A stretch of DNA of 11,178 nt from an uncultured Lachnospiraceae bacterium (GTDB lineage Bacteria > Bacillota > Clostridia > Lachnospirales > Lachnospiraceae), in NCBI GenBank assembly GCA_902803245.1, contig CADCPJ010000155.1:1-11178 (forward strand). Reading direction: 5' to 3'. Of this stretch, positions 3 to 11,056 are shown piece after piece. Numbering within the stretch: position 1 is the first letter of the stretch; each line of letters opens with the position of its first letter. The position numbers and the translations under genes were made by a program. The notes beneath the pieces are model-generated. The model saw only the letters and a list, made by a program, of their open reading frames with translations, made no database searches and had not been told where the DNA came from.

Positions 3-596
3 GAAGGAAAGAACATAGAAGCTGAAAATGCAGAAGCAAAGAGCCCGGAGAAAAAGAGCGGAGAAAATGAGAACAGCATCCTCGTGAAAATGAGGCAAAC
101 CCCGATTATCGGGAAGATGTCCGTGAGGGAGATCTTTGACCTGCTTCGCACAAATGAAAACCTGGAAGCCTTTCGGCAAAAGAAGATTCTCTCGCTCTTT
201 ACAGTGGACGAGGTATTCGATCTGCTGTATGAAATCGGGGCAATCGATGCGGTGGGAGACTATAAAATCGGGACGGACGTCACATTCGGCGATGTGCTGG
301 ACTACCTGAGGAAGAATCCGGATCTGGAGAAGCTCCGGAAGAATTCCCTCACGATCAGGATGACCGTCGGGCAGATCATCGACGCCATCGGAGAAGACCA
401 GATCAGGGATCTTCTTCTGACAAAGACGGCAGAAGCCGCCAGGGTGGACGAGTTCGAGAAATCCTCAAAGACGCTCAGCAGGTGCTGGATCCGGCTCTTC
501 CTCTTTGCCCTCATTTACGCCGGAATCACGCTTCTTGCGATTGAAATTGTCTGCCGCGGCGTCTTCAAGGACTACGACAGCATCGCCGAGATGTAA
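3..596 (+). CDS. C-terminal part of a repeat-containing membrane protein, possibly a second ABC-2-type transporter
   Basis: The frame is open from base 3 to the TAA at 594-596, so the true start probably lies before the window. A GTG at 84 and an ATG at 90 exist but have no ribosome site. Numbering from GTG 84, residues 12-119 form four tandem 27-residue repeats starting at 12, 39, 66 and 93, each opening with a pattern like M-S/T-V-x-E-I-F-D-L-L. One hydrophobic helix follows (about 135-156), then a short charged tail. The stretch before the repeats is rich in Glu and Lys. Residues 131-157 match the last membrane segment of the FHA-ABC protein (its residues 800-826) at 14 of 27 positions, including Cys-Trp and Ile-Tyr-Ala. 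I infer the tail of a related permease with a repeat-bearing loop before its last helix. It could instead be a separate membrane-anchored repeat protein. No enzymatic function can be assigned. Confidence 0.6.
   Translation, partial: EGKNIEAENAEAKSPEKKSGENENSILVKMRQTPIIGKMSVREIFDLLRTNENLEAFRQKKILSLFTVDEVFDLLYEIGAIDAVGDYKIGTDVTFGDVLDYLRKNPDLEKLRKNSLTIRMTVGQIIDAIGEDQIRDLLLTKTAEAARVDEFEKSSKTLSRCWIRLFLFALIYAGITLLAIEIVCRGVFKDYDSIAEM
117..440 (+). repeat. Four tandem 27-codon protein repeats
   Basis: The encoded segment divides into four blocks of exactly 27 residues with no gaps. Conserved places are hydrophobic-Ser/Thr-Val/Phe at positions 1-3, Glu/Asp/Gln at 5, hydrophobic at 6-7, Asp at 8 and Leu/Ile at 10. 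A second hydrophobic cluster lies near positions 16-19. The repeats are conserved in protein pattern rather than DNA, which suggests old, selected repeats of helical type. Confidence 0.7.
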
Positions 597-716: not shown

Positions 717-1016
717 ATGTTAAACATCAACAAGACCGCAGAAGGCAGCGCTCTCACAATTGCTCTGGAGGGAAGACTCGATACCACGACAGCCCCTGAG
801 CTTGAAGGCTCTTGGAAGGATGCCTCTTCGGGCGTCACCGAGCTGACGATTGACCTCAAGGCGCTGGACTATATCTCCAGTGCGGGTCTGCGCGTGCTTC
901 TGTCCATGCAGAAGGTCATGAACAAGCAGGGCAAGATGCGTGTCATCAACGTCTCCGAGGACGTGATGGAAGTCTTCGAAGTGACCGGCTTCTCAGACAT
1001 TCTTACGATCGAATAA
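717..1016 (+). CDS. STAS-domain anti-anti-sigma factor (SpoIIAA/RsbV type)
   Basis: This 99-residue protein is a single STAS domain, the usual size for SpoIIAA/RsbV antagonists. The N-terminal strand and Gly-Arg-Leu-Asp turn (19-22), the strand TIDLKALDYI (44-53) and the loop SSAGLRVLL (54-62) fit the family. Ser55 aligns with the serine that partner kinases phosphorylate in SpoIIAA (Ser58). The usual Asp just before that serine is Ser here. In known systems the unphosphorylated form binds the HATPase anti-sigma protein and frees its target. The gene has AGGAGG at 701-706, ten bases before ATG 717. A matching HATPase gene lies at 4486-4893 in the same gene group, so the two probably work as a pair in the cytoplasm. 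No cognate phosphatase or sigma factor is inside the window. Confidence 0.9.
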   Translation: MLNINKTAEGSALTIALEGRLDTTTAPELEGSWKDASSGVTELTIDLKALDYISSAGLRVLLSMQKVMNKQGKMRVINVSEDVMEVFEVTGFSDILTIE

Positions 1017-1044
1017 GGTTCCGGCGCTCCTTATACTGACAGTG

Positions 1045-1070
1045 AAAACTTCGCCTGACGGCGAAGTTTT
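1045..1070 (+). terminator. Hairpin terminator or attenuator after the STAS gene
   Basis: A perfect 11-bp stem (1045-1055 with 1060-1070) encloses a 4-base loop (TGAC). The arms end in four A and four T, so it could work in either direction. There is no long T run beyond the stem, so partial termination is likely. This would allow different expression of the STAS gene and the genes after it. Confidence 0.6.
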
Positions 1071-1104
1071 AAACCGCCGGCTTAAATAATGAGGAGGACT
1101 CTTG

Positions 1105-1935
1105 ATGATGAGAAGATTTGCGGCCGCCTGTGTCGCCGCAGGTGTTTCTGTTACCCTTTTTTTGAGCTCTGCAGCCGGGGCCTTCGCTGAGAGCTCCGCC
1201 GGGAGCACTTCAAGTGGGACGGCGGGGGCCGCATCGACGGTCTCCGAAGCCGGAACGGCAGCCTTGGAAACGGCCGCATCTGAATCCGGGGCGGCCCTGT
1301 CCAAGGAGCAGCCTTCTTCCGGATTGCCTGAGCTTCCGTTCGATTTGGACAGCGTTCTCTCAGATGAGCAGCTGCAGGAACTGACTAAGAATCTGGACGC
1401 AATCATTGCGCTTCTTTCTTCCGAGGAACTGCAGAGCCTTCTCAAGTACGAGGAAGTGCAGGATCTCCTGGTGACTATAATCGATAAGGCGATGTCTTTT
1501 ACTCAGGAAGAGCCGGAACTGTTTGCGAAGATCCTGAATGCGCTTGATCTTGACGAAACATATGTGAAGCTCATCATGAGCGCTCTGTCTGTCCTGCAGA
1601 AAGCCAGGAACAACCTGGAGGTTTATCTTGAGAGCGAGGAAGGGCAGCAGCTTCAGGGGGCCGTCAGGTCCATTCTGGATAAACCGGAAATTGTGAACAG
1701 GCTCACTGCACTTAGTGAGATTCTTGAGAAGTATTATAAAGCTGCAAGCAGTGCCGGTCAGAGCGCGGAACAGACAGCATCCGGTGAGGAAGAATCTTCA
1801 TCGGGCGCGGAACAGACAGCATCCGGTGAGGAAGAGCCTTCATCGGGCGCGGAACAGACATTATCCGGTGAGGGAGGGCCTCTATCCGGGGCACTTGAGG
1901 CAGAACTCTTGGACGGAGGTGCCACACAGAAATGA
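1105..1935 (+). CDS. Secreted helical protein with repetitive acidic C-terminal tail
   Basis: I do not recognise a family. ATG 1105 is chosen because GAGGAGG (1091-1097) sits seven bases ahead; a TTG at 1102 is in frame but less likely. The 276-residue product begins with a signal peptide (Arg3-Arg4, hydrophobic core 5-20, Ala-Phe-Ala at 26-28), giving probable cleavage before Glu29. Residues 29-75 are a Ser/Ala/Gly/Thr-rich linker. Residues 80-212 are strongly helical, acidic and Leu-rich, with no cysteine. The tail (about 219-262) holds three 14-residue repeats containing Gly-Ala-Glu-Gln-Thr. There is no membrane anchor, lipobox or sorting signal. The stop codon overlaps the start of the FHA-ABC gene (ATGA), implying translational coupling. 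An accessory or exported partner of that transporter is a reasonable inference but unproven. Confidence 0.75.
   Translation: MMRRFAAACVAAGVSVTLFLSSAAGAFAESSAGSTSSGTAGAASTVSEAGTAALETAASESGAALSKEQPSSGLPELPFDLDSVLSDEQLQELTKNLDAIIALLSSEELQSLLKYEEVQDLLVTIIDKAMSFTQEEPELFAKILNALDLDETYVKLIMSALSVLQKARNNLEVYLESEEGQQLQGAVRSILDKPEIVNRLTALSEILEKYYKAASSAGQSAEQTASGEEESSSGAEQTASGEEEPSSGAEQTLSGEGGPLSGALEAELLDGGATQK
1763..1888 (+). repeat. Three tandem 42-bp coding repeats
   Basis: Units start at 1763, 1805 and 1847. The first two are nearly identical, and the third has diverged in its second half. Each encodes 14 residues, so the reading frame is kept if copies are gained or lost. They form the disordered, acidic C-terminal tail of the secreted protein. 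Confidence 0.85.
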
Positions 1936-4424
1936 GTAGCAGAGGAAACGGGAAGCGGACTCCGGCGGGACTGGTCTTCTTTGAAGGCCAGGAGAAACCC
2001 CGGCAGTATGTCATTTTCAACAGAGCAGTGATCAAAGGCCAGTGTGATATGGAGGTCTTTACCACCACGTCACTCCAGCTTACTTATCCGTTCCTTGACA
2101 AAGAGCAGTGCGAGATCTTCTGGAACAAGGACCAGTGGTTCTTCAGGAACCTGTCGGACGATGTGTTCACTTTTGTGGGCGGCAGGAGTCTGGGTAAGGG
2201 CGCTGAGACGGCGCTGCGTGCCGGCACGGTAATCCGTCTCTCGAATGACCGCATGCTGACCGCTGTCTTCCTGACGGAATTCGTGAGCGGCAAGGACTGG
2301 AACATCATCAACATGGATGATGGCAGGCATACTGTCAGAATTGCTGCCGATACGGGAGAAGGCGAGGACAAGGCTGCGATCTCCCTCGATTACGAGGACG
2401 GCCACTGGACCATGACGGAGATGCAGGCCAAGACCGTGCTTCACAACGGCATGGAAGTCCGTGAGACTGTCCGGATCCGGATTGATGACATCATTGAGAT
2501 CGGCAATACCGCTTTCCTCTTTGAGGGATCCGGACTCGTCTATGGATACCCGACGCAGGCCAGCGGGCTCAGCATCAATATCGACGAGAGAAGTGCGCAT
2601 CAGGCCCTGAAGAAGGTCACGCTCTTAAAGGATATCAACCTTCAGATAGAGCCCGGCAACATGGTGCTGATCCTGGGTGGTTCCGGAGCCGGAAAGAGCA
2701 CATTTGTCAATGCCGTCACCGGATACGAGAAGGCAAAAGCGACCATTAAAGAGGGCGACCTCGATTTTTACAAGGATTACGGGCAGGTAAAATACCGGAT
2801 CGGCTTTGTGCCTCAGGAAAACCTGATGCGCGAGGAGGACACGGTGGGCGACACCGTGATGAATGCAGCCGACATGCGTCTGCCCAAGTCGATGTCGGAA
2901 CAGGAGAAGGTGAAGCGCGTCGCAGCGGTTCTCGAGACCTTCGGCCTCTCCGGCAGGGAGAAGGAGCTCGTCTCGAAGCTCTCCGGAGGCCAGAAGAAGA
3001 GGCTCTCCATCTGTACCGAATTCGTGGCATCCCCGTCCCTCTTCATCCTCGATGAGCCGGATTCGGGCCTTGACGGCATCATGGCCACGGAGCTGATGGA
3101 GAATCTGAGGCTCATAGCCTGCCAGGGCAGGATCGTCATGGTTATCACTCACGCGCCCGACCGCGTGGCACACCTCTTTGACAAGGTGATCGTTCTCGCC
3201 AAGGGAACGGAGACAAAGATCGGGCAGCTTGCCTTCTACGGGGGAATAGAGGAAGCCAGAGAGTTCTTCGGCGTTCCGACGATGGAGGAGGTTGTCCGGC
3301 AGATCAACGCGAAGAATGAAGGCGGAGCGGGCCGCTCGGACGAGTTCATTCAAAAGTACAAGGAATACGCCGAGGCGCGGGACAAGAAGAAACCCAGGCG
3401 CATGCTGTTCCGCGATGCCGACGCTGTAGGTCAGGCGAAAGGCAGTGTGGCCGAGGCGTTTGAAGAGGATCACCCCAAAACGCGCAACCTCGCATACCGG
3501 TCGAGATTCGAGCAGATTCCGATCTATCTGGGCAAACAGTTCCGTCTCTTCTTCACGGAGAGGAACTGGAAGGTTCTTCCGATGGCGGCGATCATCGCCT
3601 ATCTCGTGGTCTACGTTCTCGGAAGCAAGATGTTCCGGAACATGGAATATACGAAGTACGGATCGCTGGCCCTCGTCTGCGTGTGCATCTGGAACGGTAT
3701 GTTCAATTCCATCCAGGTGGTATGCAAGGAGAGGAATATTATTAAAAGGGAACACCGGGCGGGACTCCATATTACGTCCTACCTCGCTTCTCACATGATC
3801 TATCAGGCGATTATCTGCCTCGCGCAGGTTCTCATCACACTCGGGATCTTCAAGGCCTTCGGCATGTATTTCCCGCCGAAGGGACTGATCACCGGCGTGT
3901 TTGCCCTTGATGCGGGCATCTCGATGTTCCTCGCCACCTATGCGGCGGATATGCTGGCACTTATGGTGTCCTGTATGGTGAGGACAACGACGACCGCCAT
4001 GACGGTCATGCCGTTCCTTCTCATCGTGCAGCTGGTATTTGCCGGCTCGATCTTCCCCCTGAACCGCCCGACCGCGAAAGTCCTGGCGAACTTCACGATC
4101 AGCAACTGGGGAATCAACGCGATCAATATCGCCGCCGATTACAACGGGCAGAAGTCCTCCGCGATCTATGCCGCAGTTGACCAGCTCAAAGACGACCCGA
4201 ATGCTGAGGACGACGGCTTCATGACCAAGGTGAAGAAGGTTCTCGAGATCGATGAGGTCAAGGATCGGGTTGAGACGTACACAGCACAGAAGATGCAAGT
4301 CAAGGAGTTTGCTTTTGACAAGGGCAATCTCGCCAAGTGCTGGGGGATTCTGGCCCTGTTTTCGGCGATCTATGCCGTCATCGGACTGATTGCTCTCGAG
4401 ATGGTCGATAAAGATAAGAGATAG
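1932..4424 (+). CDS. FHA-FHA-ABC transporter (ATPase fused to ABC-2/ABCG-type permease, Rv1747-like layout)
   Basis: The 830-residue protein has, in order, two FHA-like domains (about 25-118 and 122-205), an ABC ATPase (about 222-440), a charged linker (441-545) and a six-helix ABC-2 permease (about 546-826). ATPase motifs are intact: Walker A GGSGAGKST (249-257), Q-loop Gln295, signature LSGGQ (350-354), Walker B Asp374-Glu375, and His407. The permease has the ABCG-like stretch KERNIIKREHRAG (599-611). This is the order of mycobacterial Rv1747, an exporter whose FHA domains bind phosphothreonine. Here the residues that normally contact phosphothreonine are mostly lost: both domains have Asp-Lys where Ser-Arg is usual (55-56 and 145-146). 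ATG 1932 overlaps the previous stop and has GGAGGT at 1915-1920. The direction is probably export, and the substrate is unknown. The neighbouring STAS and HATPase genes suggest partner-switching control. Confidence 0.88.
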   Translation: MSSRGNGKRTPAGLVFFEGQEKPRQYVIFNRAVIKGQCDMEVFTTTSLQLTYPFLDKEQCEIFWNKDQWFFRNLSDDVFTFVGGRSLGKGAETALRAGTVIRLSNDRMLTAVFLTEFVSGKDWNIINMDDGRHTVRIAADTGEGEDKAAISLDYEDGHWTMTEMQAKTVLHNGMEVRETVRIRIDDIIEIGNTAFLFEGSGLVYGYPTQASGLSINIDERSAHQALKKVTLLKDINLQIEPGNMVLILGGSGAGKSTFVNAVTGYEKAKATIKEGDLDFYKDYGQVKYRIGFVPQENLMREEDTVGDTVMNAADMRLPKSMSEQEKVKRVAAVLETFGLSGREKELVSKLSGGQKKRLSICTEFVASPSLFILDEPDSGLDGIMATELMENLRLIACQGRIVMVITHAPDRVAHLFDKVIVLAKGTETKIGQLAFYGGIEEAREFFGVPTMEEVVRQINAKNEGGAGRSDEFIQKYKEYAEARDKKKPRRMLFRDADAVGQAKGSVAEAFEEDHPKTRNLAYRSRFEQIPIYLGKQFRLFFTERNWKVLPMAAIIAYLVVYVLGSKMFRNMEYTKYGSLALVCVCIWNGMFNSIQVVCKERNIIKREHRAGLHITSYLASHMIYQAIICLAQVLITLGIFKAFGMYFPPKGLITGVFALDAGISMFLATYAADMLALMVSCMVRTTTTAMTVMPFLLIVQLVFAGSIFPLNRPTAKVLANFTISNWGINAINIAADYNGQKSSAIYAAVDQLKDDPNAEDDGFMTKVKKVLEIDEVKDRVETYTAQKMQVKEFAFDKGNLAKCWGILALFSAIYAVIGLIALEMVDKDKR

Positions 4425-4485
4425 CAAAATGTCAGACAGCGGATTCACCGCCAAACCGGAATGAGCAAGAAAGGGGCTTTCTGCG

Positions 4486-4893
4486 ATGCCTGAACTTAGA
4501 ATTGAAGCTTCAATTCAAAAACTGGGAGACGTTCTCACTTTTGTGGATCAGACCCTGGAGGAGCTGGACTGCCCGATGAAGGCTCAGATGCAGCTCGATA
4601 TCGCGGTGGAAGAAATCTTCGTGAACATCGCGAATTACGCATATGCGCCGGGAACCGGTGACGCCTTGATCCGGATCGAGTGCGGCGATGAGGACAGGGT
4701 GGTTCACATCACCTTTATCGATCATGGTGTGCCGTACGATCCTCTGGCGAAGGAGGATCCGGATATCACCCTCTCCGCTGAGGAGAGGCAGATCGGCGGA
4801 CTGGGAATCTTCATGGTGAAGAAGAATGTGGATGAGATGACCTATGTTTATGAGGGAGGTGAAAACCGCCTGACTCTCCACAAAAAGATCTGA
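4486..4893 (+). CDS. Anti-sigma-type serine kinase / HATPase (RsbW/SpoIIAB family)
   Basis: This 135-residue protein is a single GHKL ATPase domain of anti-sigma-kinase size. The N-box is visible as EEIFVNIANYAY (42-53), with Glu43 and Asn47 in the expected catalytic and magnesium places. The G1 box is DHGVPYDP (79-86) and the G2 box is GGLGIFMVKK (104-113). Known relatives bind a sigma factor or other partner and phosphorylate a STAS antagonist on serine. The partner here is most simply the STAS protein at 717-1016. The ribosome site AAGGGG (4471-4476) lies nine bases before ATG 4486. The gene follows the transporter by 61 bases with no terminator between them, so it is probably co-transcribed, and a strong terminator closes the unit. 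No sigma factor is adjacent, so the second partner is unknown. Confidence 0.88.
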   Translation: MPELRIEASIQKLGDVLTFVDQTLEELDCPMKAQMQLDIAVEEIFVNIANYAYAPGTGDALIRIECGDEDRVVHITFIDHGVPYDPLAKEDPDITLSAEERQIGGLGIFMVKKNVDEMTYVYEGGENRLTLHKKI

Positions 4894-4924: not shown

Positions 4925-4953
4925 AGTGCCGGAGCTTAATCCGGCACTTTTTT
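4925..4953 (+). terminator. Rho-independent terminator after the HATPase gene
   Basis: An 8-bp stem (AGTGCCGG at 4925-4932 with CCGGCACT at 4941-4948) with an 8-base loop is followed by five further T (4949-4953). It separates the FHA-ABC/partner-switching group from the sugar-uptake genes. Confidence 0.88.
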
Positions 4954-10276: not shown

Positions 10277-11056
10277 ATGAGAACACTCTTTAATGTGGAC
10301 GGGCCGGTCATGCGGGCCATGACGGACATCATGAATCTCGTGATCCTGAACCTGCTCACGCTCCTTTGCTGTATTCCCATCGTGACCGCGGGAGCGGCCC
10401 TGTCCGCCATGCACTATATTCTTCTGCAGATCATCGAGCAGGAGGAAGGCGGAATCGCGAGGACTTATTTCACCCAGTTCCGCGGAAACTTAAGGGATTC
10501 CACGCTTCCATGGCTCGCTGTCCTCATCTGCGGGATCCTTCTCTACGTCGACTTCCGGGTATTCGGGGCGGATGCGGACAAGAGATACCTAGTGATACCG
10601 GCCTATATTGCAGCCGCAGTTCTCGCCATGATCTTCGTCTGGCTCTTCCCGCTCCTCGCGAAGTTTTCCAATTCCTTCCTTGCGAGCATGAAGAACGCGT
10701 TTCTGCTCGCCGTGGGTAATCTGCCGAGAACGCTCGGAATGGTCGCTATCACGGCGGCGGTGCCGTTTGTCCTCACGCAGGTGACGGCGCTTCTTCCGCT
10801 GGCCCTTCTCTTCGGCATTTCCCTTCCGGCCTATTTAAGTGCGTTCCTCTACAAGGGCGTCATTTTACAAATGGTGAAACGGGCACAGGGAAATCAAGAC
10901 CAGGCAGACCGGGCGCAGGAAGGGGAAGCGCAAAAAGAGGAAGTGCAGGAAGAGGAAATGCAGAAGGCGGAAGTGCGGGAAGAGGAAGTGCGGGAAAAGG
11001 CGGAAGTGCGGGAAGAGGAAATGCAGAAGGCGGAAGTGCGGGAAGAAAAAATGTAG
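10277..11056 (+). CDS. YesL/DUF624-family membrane protein with charged pentapeptide tail
   Basis: The first 200 residues match the YesL (DUF624) family: an N-terminal motif of LFN...GP.MR type (4-13), then membrane helices near 20-40, 78-96, 106-128, 155-175 and 177-195. YesL-like genes commonly sit beside sugar ABC transporters; their exact role is unsettled. ATG 10277 gives the normal family N-terminus although no ribosome site precedes it. After residue 200 the protein leaves the family fold and becomes a Glu/Lys/Arg/Gln tail, with pentapeptide repeats from residue 219 of the form E-E-V/M-Q/R-E/K. The tail probably forms a cytoplasmic charged helix. TAG at 11054-11056 ends it, but the same frame stays open to the window end, and a copy of this segment 90 bp later has CAG instead. 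The full protein may once have been longer. Confidence 0.85.
   Translation: MRTLFNVDGPVMRAMTDIMNLVILNLLTLLCCIPIVTAGAALSAMHYILLQIIEQEEGGIARTYFTQFRGNLRDSTLPWLAVLICGILLYVDFRVFGADADKRYLVIPAYIAAAVLAMIFVWLFPLLAKFSNSFLASMKNAFLLAVGNLPRTLGMVAITAAVPFVLTQVTALLPLALLFGISLPAYLSAFLYKGVILQMVKRAQGNQDQADRAQEGEAQKEEVQEEEMQKAEVREEEVREKAEVREEEMQKAEVREEKM

Follow-up and report, generated by a model that had tools for sequence, protein, structure and literature searches.

A partner-switching gene pair that brackets an FHA-ABC exporter in a Lachnospiraceae genome hints at transporter control without a sigma factor

What does a partner-switching pair control when exporter genes, and no sigma factor gene, lie between its two members? 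This question is raised by contig C155 (CADCPJ010000155.1) of an uncultured Lachnospiraceae bacterium, which we analyzed as a whole from base 1 over its 11,178 bases (hereafter the window). A STAS protein of the anti-sigma-antagonist kind and an RsbW/SpoIIAB-like kinase candidate flank the genes for a secreted protein and an FHA-FHA-ABC exporter, and this bracketing hints that such switches can act directly on transporters. The host is a gut-type bacterium, represented by a metagenome-assembled genome (MAG) of 417 contigs and 2.23 Mb that is 85.8% complete. In order, the window holds the 3' end of an ABC-2 permease gene, the STAS gene, the secreted protein gene, the FHA-FHA-ABC-ABC2 exporter gene, the HATPase gene, a LacI regulator and a sugar ABC system. 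The features around the switch are as follows.

717-1016, plus strand: STAS anti-sigma-antagonist-like protein, 99 amino acids (PF01740, 1.8e-15; TIGR00377, 72.6 bits against a cut-off of 53.45)
1045-1070, plus strand: strong inverted repeat, terminator-like, between the STAS gene and the secreted protein gene; not flagged by the terminator pattern scan
1102-1935, plus strand: probably secreted helical protein, 277 amino acids, with a signal-like N-terminus read by eye
1932-4424, plus strand: FHA-FHA-ABC ATPase-ABC2 permease exporter, 830 amino acids (PF00498, PF00005, PF01061)
4486-4893, plus strand: HATPase_c_2 protein, RsbW/SpoIIAB-like kinase candidate, 135 amino acids (PF13581, 1.3e-19)
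about 4925-4952, plus strand: terminator-like hairpin with a T-run after the HATPase gene, the T-run being read on the plus strand

We tentatively favor, as quite possible though short of an even chance, a sigma-less partner switch whose output is directed at the exporter wherever the switch sits with exporter genes. An earlier, sequence-only reading of the window had proposed that a phospho-switch controls the exporter or its regulon. That proposal gains from the lack of any SigB/F/G-type factor over the cut-off, from the recurrent adjacency of switch and exporter and from STAS-ABC fusions, but it loses from a grouping that is not constant.

The identities first given to the STAS, secreted, exporter and HATPase proteins were borne out by Pfam, TIGR00377 and a structure model. 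A Pfam scan of the 10 main frames and a sigma model also confirmed that neither a sigma factor nor a phosphatase is encoded within the window. In alignment with RsbV and SpoIIAA (6m36_B, 1th8_B), Ser55 of the STAS protein falls on the serine that is phosphorylated in those two. The HATPase protein keeps the ATP-site motifs (N, G1 and G2 boxes) in alignment, and its PDB relatives by sequence at an E value of 0.01 are SpoIIAB (1th8_A) and SenB. SpoIIE phosphatases number none in the window and 10 matches in its genome. One of these, on contig C228, is 62.7% identical over 611 amino acids to the SpoIIE whose gene overlaps the secreted protein and exporter genes of another exporter genome (G303); the C228 gene itself overlaps a MATE gene.

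To what extent do switch and exporter keep company elsewhere? The exporter was surveyed in the family (299 genomes drawn from a larger group) and in the genus (42 genomes). A full-length match of at least 66% identity occurs, among the matches listed in the family survey, in the window's own genome only, and the exporter is present in 8 of the 42 genus genomes. Four named exporter relatives come from Lachnospiraceae, Blautia and Clostridia MAGs. In total, 11 distinct exporter loci were compared (the window, the seven loci L118-L124, L022, L023 and L024; L021 and L122 are one contig), with exporters 66-81% identical to that of the window, L024 being partial. Neighboring genes were called by six-frame profile models for STAS, HATPase, SpoIIE and others, which were built from the loci themselves and carry no curated cut-offs; several exporter loci are cut by contig ends. 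Under these terms a STAS gene is found in six of the 11 loci (window, L118, L120, L124, L022, L023), a HATPase gene in four (window, L120, L124, L022) and a SpoIIE gene in two (L119, L022), so that seven loci hold at least one switch gene. The most constant neighbor of the exporter is the secreted protein, present in 10 of the 11; in L023 the contig stops 0.5 kb upstream of the exporter.

The order STAS, secreted protein, exporter, HATPase is shared by the window and L120, and L118 follows it up to the point where the contig ends. L124 runs exporter, secreted protein, STAS, metallophosphoesterase, HATPase; L119, the G303 locus, has SpoIIE, secreted protein and exporter as overlapping genes; and L022 (also scanned as L213) runs SpoIIE, HATPase, two NHLM genes and STAS, facing the exporter. 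G340 has an L022-like order over two contigs, presumably joined, one with SpoIIE, HATPase and NHLM (L211), the other with NHLM, STAS and the exporter (L206). By chance, STAS and exporter would lie within 2 kb of each other in about 0.3% of genomes, against 4 observed among the 7 genus genomes that carry both. Three of these four cases share one arrangement, so that the genus contributes roughly two independent ones, to which G339/G340 and G187 are added. The adjacency is thus too frequent for chance and too rare and variable for an obligate unit; the link between exporter and switch is real but not obligate. We also observed that STAS or HATPase genes have, in more than one locus, a membrane metallophosphoesterase-like gene nearby (L124 5469-6704, minus strand; L249; L262).

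The most familiar client for such a pair would be a sigma factor of the SigB/F/G type, and the idea of a switch without one is upheld by the 11 exporter genomes. TIGR02980 (SigBFG) exceeds its cut-off in none of them, two of which are at least 90% complete, this cut-off being without a positive control inside the family. The best score, about 137 bits against a cut-off of 234, falls in frames of RpoD size (363-433 amino acids), and 1 of 14 control genomes exceeds the cut-off. In the window's genome, Sigma70_r2 matches only a 203-amino-acid frame, SigH-like by eye, and a weak piece. Because this MAG yields no full RpoD match, sigma absence from it alone means little, and it is the 11-genome result that carries weight. 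Standard SigB/SigF-type control, whose sigma gene this incomplete MAG would simply lack, would suit two proteins of the RsbV/RsbW and SpoIIAA/SpoIIAB kind and an assembly at 85.8% completeness without a full RpoD; set against the 11 genomes, we consider it very unlikely.

A different sigma factor could be held by the HATPase protein instead, be it RpoD, a second RpoD-like copy or an extracytoplasmic function (ECF) factor, with the exporter belonging to that factor's regulon. In favor of this, RsbW acts on the housekeeping sigma factor in Chlamydia, an ECF gene lies beside HlyD-like and secreted genes in L022, and G303, G334 and G341 each carry two RpoD-like frames, one of those in G334 being truncated at a contig edge. 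Against it stands a broad sigma model that recovers every one of the 44 sigma loci fetched. Of 13 exporter or NHLM switch loci it detects a sigma gene in one only, namely the ECF gene on L213 (the L022 contig), and of the 27 other STAS loci in two (L258, L259); none of the sigma-bearing loci in these two sets (13 + 27) has the order RsbV-RsbW-sigma. An NHLM cluster that lacks switch genes (L200) likewise has an ECF-type match next to it. We therefore regard control through another sigma factor as unlikely. Separately, contig C40 of G303 (L134, L141) carries two sigma frames of RpoD size in tandem.

Transporter control is best supported outside the window, by the STAS-APH-ABC and MATE-HATPase fusions of the following list, which also gives fusions of the same STAS-APH module to the HATPase.

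L061 8827-10812: STAS-APH-ABC ATPase fusion of the same ABC family as the window exporter
L256 9012-10580, L262 1023-2594, L263 3493-5064: STAS-APH-HATPase_c_2 fusions whose genes come right behind a standalone STAS gene
L075 1-1725 and L079 1650-3395, minus strand: MATE exporters with a C-terminal HATPase_c_2 domain, in the window's genome

In G187, which belongs to another genus, a standalone STAS protein 56% identical to the window's is followed by a permease and by an ABC ATPase with an N-terminal STAS fusion. This ATPase is of the window exporter's family, gives no FHA match and has an APH/TIGR02172-like middle part. At least 14 such STAS-APH-ABC fusions, the query included (P0001-P0014), head the 120 of 2568 matches listed. 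A precomputed STAS domain is recorded in 12 of the 14, and the phospho-Ser motif Y[IV][ST]S[AS]GLR is kept in all 6 proteins inspected. One of the two MATE-HATPase fusions in the window's genome sits behind SpoIIE and STAS genes, and both domains are found in 86 of the 111 matches of this protein; most of these matches are 69-77% identical and hence represent one close lineage, and one is named by its source as an efflux pump/anti-sigma regulatory factor.

NHLM exporters are a further candidate client. In L022, where SpoIIE comes first, an NHLM_micro_ABC1 protein (901 bits, over the cut-off) and an ABC2 protein just under it (707.9 against 709.4) are encoded between HATPase and STAS, and one NHLM cluster of G325 has a HATPase gene at its edge (L203). 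NHLM_micro_ABC1-like exporters occur in all 11 exporter genomes, 10 of them over the cut-off. Within the genus, NHLM is present in 8 of 8 exporter genomes and 16 of 34 others (Fisher p 0.006, a value that ignores relatedness), a co-occurrence that is suggestive only. Taken together, the adjacencies and fusions raise a wider possibility, which we put forward with reserve and would not yet bet on: in Lachnospiraceae-type Clostridia the whole partner-switch class might have been redirected from sigma factors to transporters, regulating exporters by contact, attached to them by adjacency (FHA-ABC-2, NHLM) or by fusion (STAS-APH-ABC, MATE-HATPase), with STAS phosphorylation switching the ABC ATPase.

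A substantial body of evidence weighs against exporter control, and much of it fits a close rival. STAS orthologues scoring at least 91 bits (52-100% identity) number 31 in 29 of the 42 genus genomes; matches under 91 bits were left out, including one of 53% identity within a 462-amino-acid frame (G307:C78). Only four of the 31 are linked to the exporter (window, G330, G335, G327), and no FHA-ABC gene was found in the 27 remaining STAS stretches that were fetched, many of which stop at contig edges. In 18 of these 27 exporter-free loci a HATPase gene lies within 8 kb, in 14 of them within 200 bases, and in three (L256, L262, L263) the HATPase is part of a fusion; SpoIIE is found in nine and NHLM in one, and the other neighbors vary. 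Since HATPase recurs beside the exporter-free STAS genes and FHA-ABC does not, the conserved unit is STAS plus HATPase, with the exporter an occasional insert. A special exporter-dedicated STAS paralogue was considered but is not supported by identity, as the unlinked protein of G321 (72% identity) is closer to the window's than the linked one of L124 (64-65%). Among the exporter loci, L122 has more than 8 kb of flank on each side of the exporter without a switch gene; L121, L123 and L024 also show none beside it, their contigs ending nearby. The MAG of G334, 86% complete, contains the exporter but gives no STAS match, and in three of the 7 genus genomes with both (G303, G325, G326) the two genes are on different contigs. 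Switch genes were found in 5 of the 27 ABC/NHLM stretches scanned (L195, L203, L206, L211, L213) and are absent from the other 22, and the STAS-APH-ABC and MATE-HATPase fusions are other proteins than those of the window. The grouping of switch and exporter from which the earlier reading set out recurs in several gene orders but is not constant, 27 of 31 STAS genes having no FHA-ABC gene in the fetched stretch.

These observations would be expected if the window held a genus-wide RsbV/RsbW-like pair of global output, fed by many SpoIIE proteins, between whose genes the secreted protein and exporter are merely interposed in some genomes. The breadth of the STAS orthologue across the genus, the HATPase and SpoIIE genes near its exporter-free copies, the changing identity of its other neighbors and the 10 SpoIIE matches in the window's genome all speak for such a bystander role. 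It fails to explain why several gene orders keep exporter and switch together, why SpoIIE, secreted protein and exporter form a group in G303, or why STAS-ABC and MATE-HATPase fusions exist. We rate the bystander role as a serious possibility, only slightly less probable than exporter control.

The transcriptional layout also bears on exporter control. The window's genes had been described as one group closed by a terminator. The closing end stands, with a hairpin and T-run at about 4925-4952; the pattern scan lists this inverted repeat on the minus strand, and the plus-strand T-run was read directly from the sequence. The opening end is not confirmed, as the inverted repeat at 1045-1070 splits off the STAS gene. 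Both same-order relatives, L118 and L120, carry a hairpin and T-run in the gap between STAS and the secreted gene as well, so that this gap holds a hairpin in all three loci of the window's arrangement, which makes a single operon doubtful. These hairpins weaken the candidate of a dedicated operon that includes STAS and are another point against exporter control: STAS is probably terminated separately, and the secreted gene, the exporter (whose gene overlaps the secreted gene by 4 bases) and HATPase may form one transcription unit.

Could the signal instead enter through the FHA domains of the exporter? Pfam finds one FHA domain, and the second is visible only in the structure model. The N-terminal model (215 residues, 19 sequences, pLDDT 87) is all-beta throughout, and its PDB matches are FHA domains; the tandem FHA of EssC (5fwh, 1wv3) is among the best structural matches, although the tandem geometry fits weakly (TM 0.35 by query). 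We compared the N-termini of 33 proteins, comprising 11 window-type rows (L021 and L122 being the same contig) and 22 other members of the ABC family. In all 10 window-type proteins aligned, neither FHA domain retains the S/TxxH motif or the first NG; FHA1 of L121 and of L022 still has a GR pair. The claim that these domains read a phospho-signal is thus contradicted, as the phosphothreonine-binding residues are gone, and the FHA region as a phosphothreonine reader was rejected on the alignment. An apparently intact site in L124, a single regular-expression match, was not upheld by alignment. Among the 22 other members, the intact site GR...S/TxxH...NG is present in six (L058, L065, L066, L073, L074, L125), and each of their loci also encodes a Ser/Thr kinase, as against 2 of the 16 without the site (L056, L069). 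As a side observation, members of the same ABC family have 2-4 membrane-helix-like N-terminal segments in place of FHA (L059, L060, L062, L063, L064, L067, L068, L070, L071, L129).

No Ser/Thr kinase gene is found in any of the 11 window-type loci, some of them truncated by contig ends. An Rv1747-like arrangement, in which the FHA domains would place the exporter under a Ser/Thr protein kinase and the STAS/HATPase pair would have no part, can draw on the kinase genes of the six intact-site relatives and on the one PrkC-like kinase in the window's genome. With the phosphothreonine site lost and no kinase in the loci, we consider this route the least probable of those weighed here. By sites and loci alike, the window subfamily has departed from the Rv1747 logic of kinase and FHA.

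How would exporter control then operate? In the tentatively favored switch, HATPase would phosphorylate the STAS protein at Ser55, and SpoIIE-domain phosphatases would dephosphorylate it upon a signal. Unphosphorylated STAS would swap partners between HATPase and the exporter's ABC ATPase, or else HATPase would release the exporter; in either case export would be switched on or off. Instead of reading phosphothreonine, the degenerate FHA domains would serve in docking or assembly, a function that EssC may share. We infer the physical contacts, the direction of control and the substrate in this scheme. If it is true, a client is supplied for RsbV/RsbW-like pairs without SigB/F/G.

The remaining features of the window are less closely tied to the switch. 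The secreted protein (1102-1935) matched no Pfam or NCBIfam family, and its structure model is poor (mean pLDDT 58), a low-confidence helical fold of which residues 88-226 are the better part. One further gene piece, which the earlier reading had overlooked, lies at the upstream edge.

3-596, plus strand: 3' end of the second ABC-2 permease gene, cut by the 5' edge of the contig, with a long insert before the last helix

The product of this piece is 36.5% identical over 167 amino acids to a lone permease of 441 amino acids in the same place, upstream of STAS, in L118, and its model (P170) matches the C-termini of ABC-2 permeases. A match of the 170-amino-acid frame to Pfam RXLR_WY was under the cut-off and was disregarded. 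The permease upstream of STAS has a long repeat-like insert in both loci (window 3-596; L118 3884-5206, minus strand), and no ATPase gene adjoins the L118 copy. At the other end, after the sugar ABC transporter group, window positions 10277-11056 encode a DUF624 protein that ends in a repetitive C-terminal tail rich in Glu and Lys.

Among the matches listed in searches of open-licence PMC literature, judged by title or abstract, none showed a partner switch linked to an FHA-ABC, MATE or NHLM exporter. The closest known systems each share part of the arrangement. The RsbV/RsbW/RsbU-P and SpoIIAA/SpoIIAB/SpoIIE switches of Bacillus resemble it in a phospho-Ser STAS protein, a HATPase with ATP-site motifs and SpoIIE-type phosphatases in the genome; they differ in that here none of the 11 genomes has a SigB/F/G factor over the cut-off, the window lacks a phosphatase and exporter genes lie between the pair. 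Rv1747-PknF of M. tuberculosis shares the FHA-FHA-ABC-ABC2 architecture, with FHA on an ABC transporter, whereas in the window type the FHA sites have degenerated and the loci hold no kinase gene. The NHLM/NHLP bacteriocin export cassettes (TIGR03796/TIGR03797) occur together with a partner switch and the exporter in L022 and L023, but they lie outside the window, on other contigs of its genome.

Bordetella offers a partner-switch trio tied to a secretion machine, BtrU/BtrV/BtrW, of which BtrU and BtrW act on type III secretion according to a review (PMC8256260); the difference is the type III machine. The EssC ATPase of type VII secretion has a tandem FHA without phosphothreonine-binding residues, as described in PMC4925161; it is alike in bearing such a tandem on a secretion ATPase, and differs in the ATPase, the machine and the weakly fitting geometry. 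In E. coli, the STAS protein MlaB binds the ABC ATPase MlaF and is required for its stability (PMC7367683); that paper poses MlaB phosphorylation as an open question, its MlaFB structure work leaving open whether STAS phosphorylation regulates ABC transporters. The likeness to MlaB-MlaF lies in a STAS protein, bearing Ser or Thr at its regulatory site, that is tied to an ABC ATPase, here only by adjacency and, in relatives, by fusion. MlaFEDB moves phospholipids, whereas the protein in question here is an ABC-2-type ABC protein with kinase-candidate and phosphatase genes in the genome. With a kinase candidate, phosphatases, a STAS protein and an ABC ATPase in one genome and natural STAS-ABC fusions in its relatives, the question posed for MlaB becomes directly testable.

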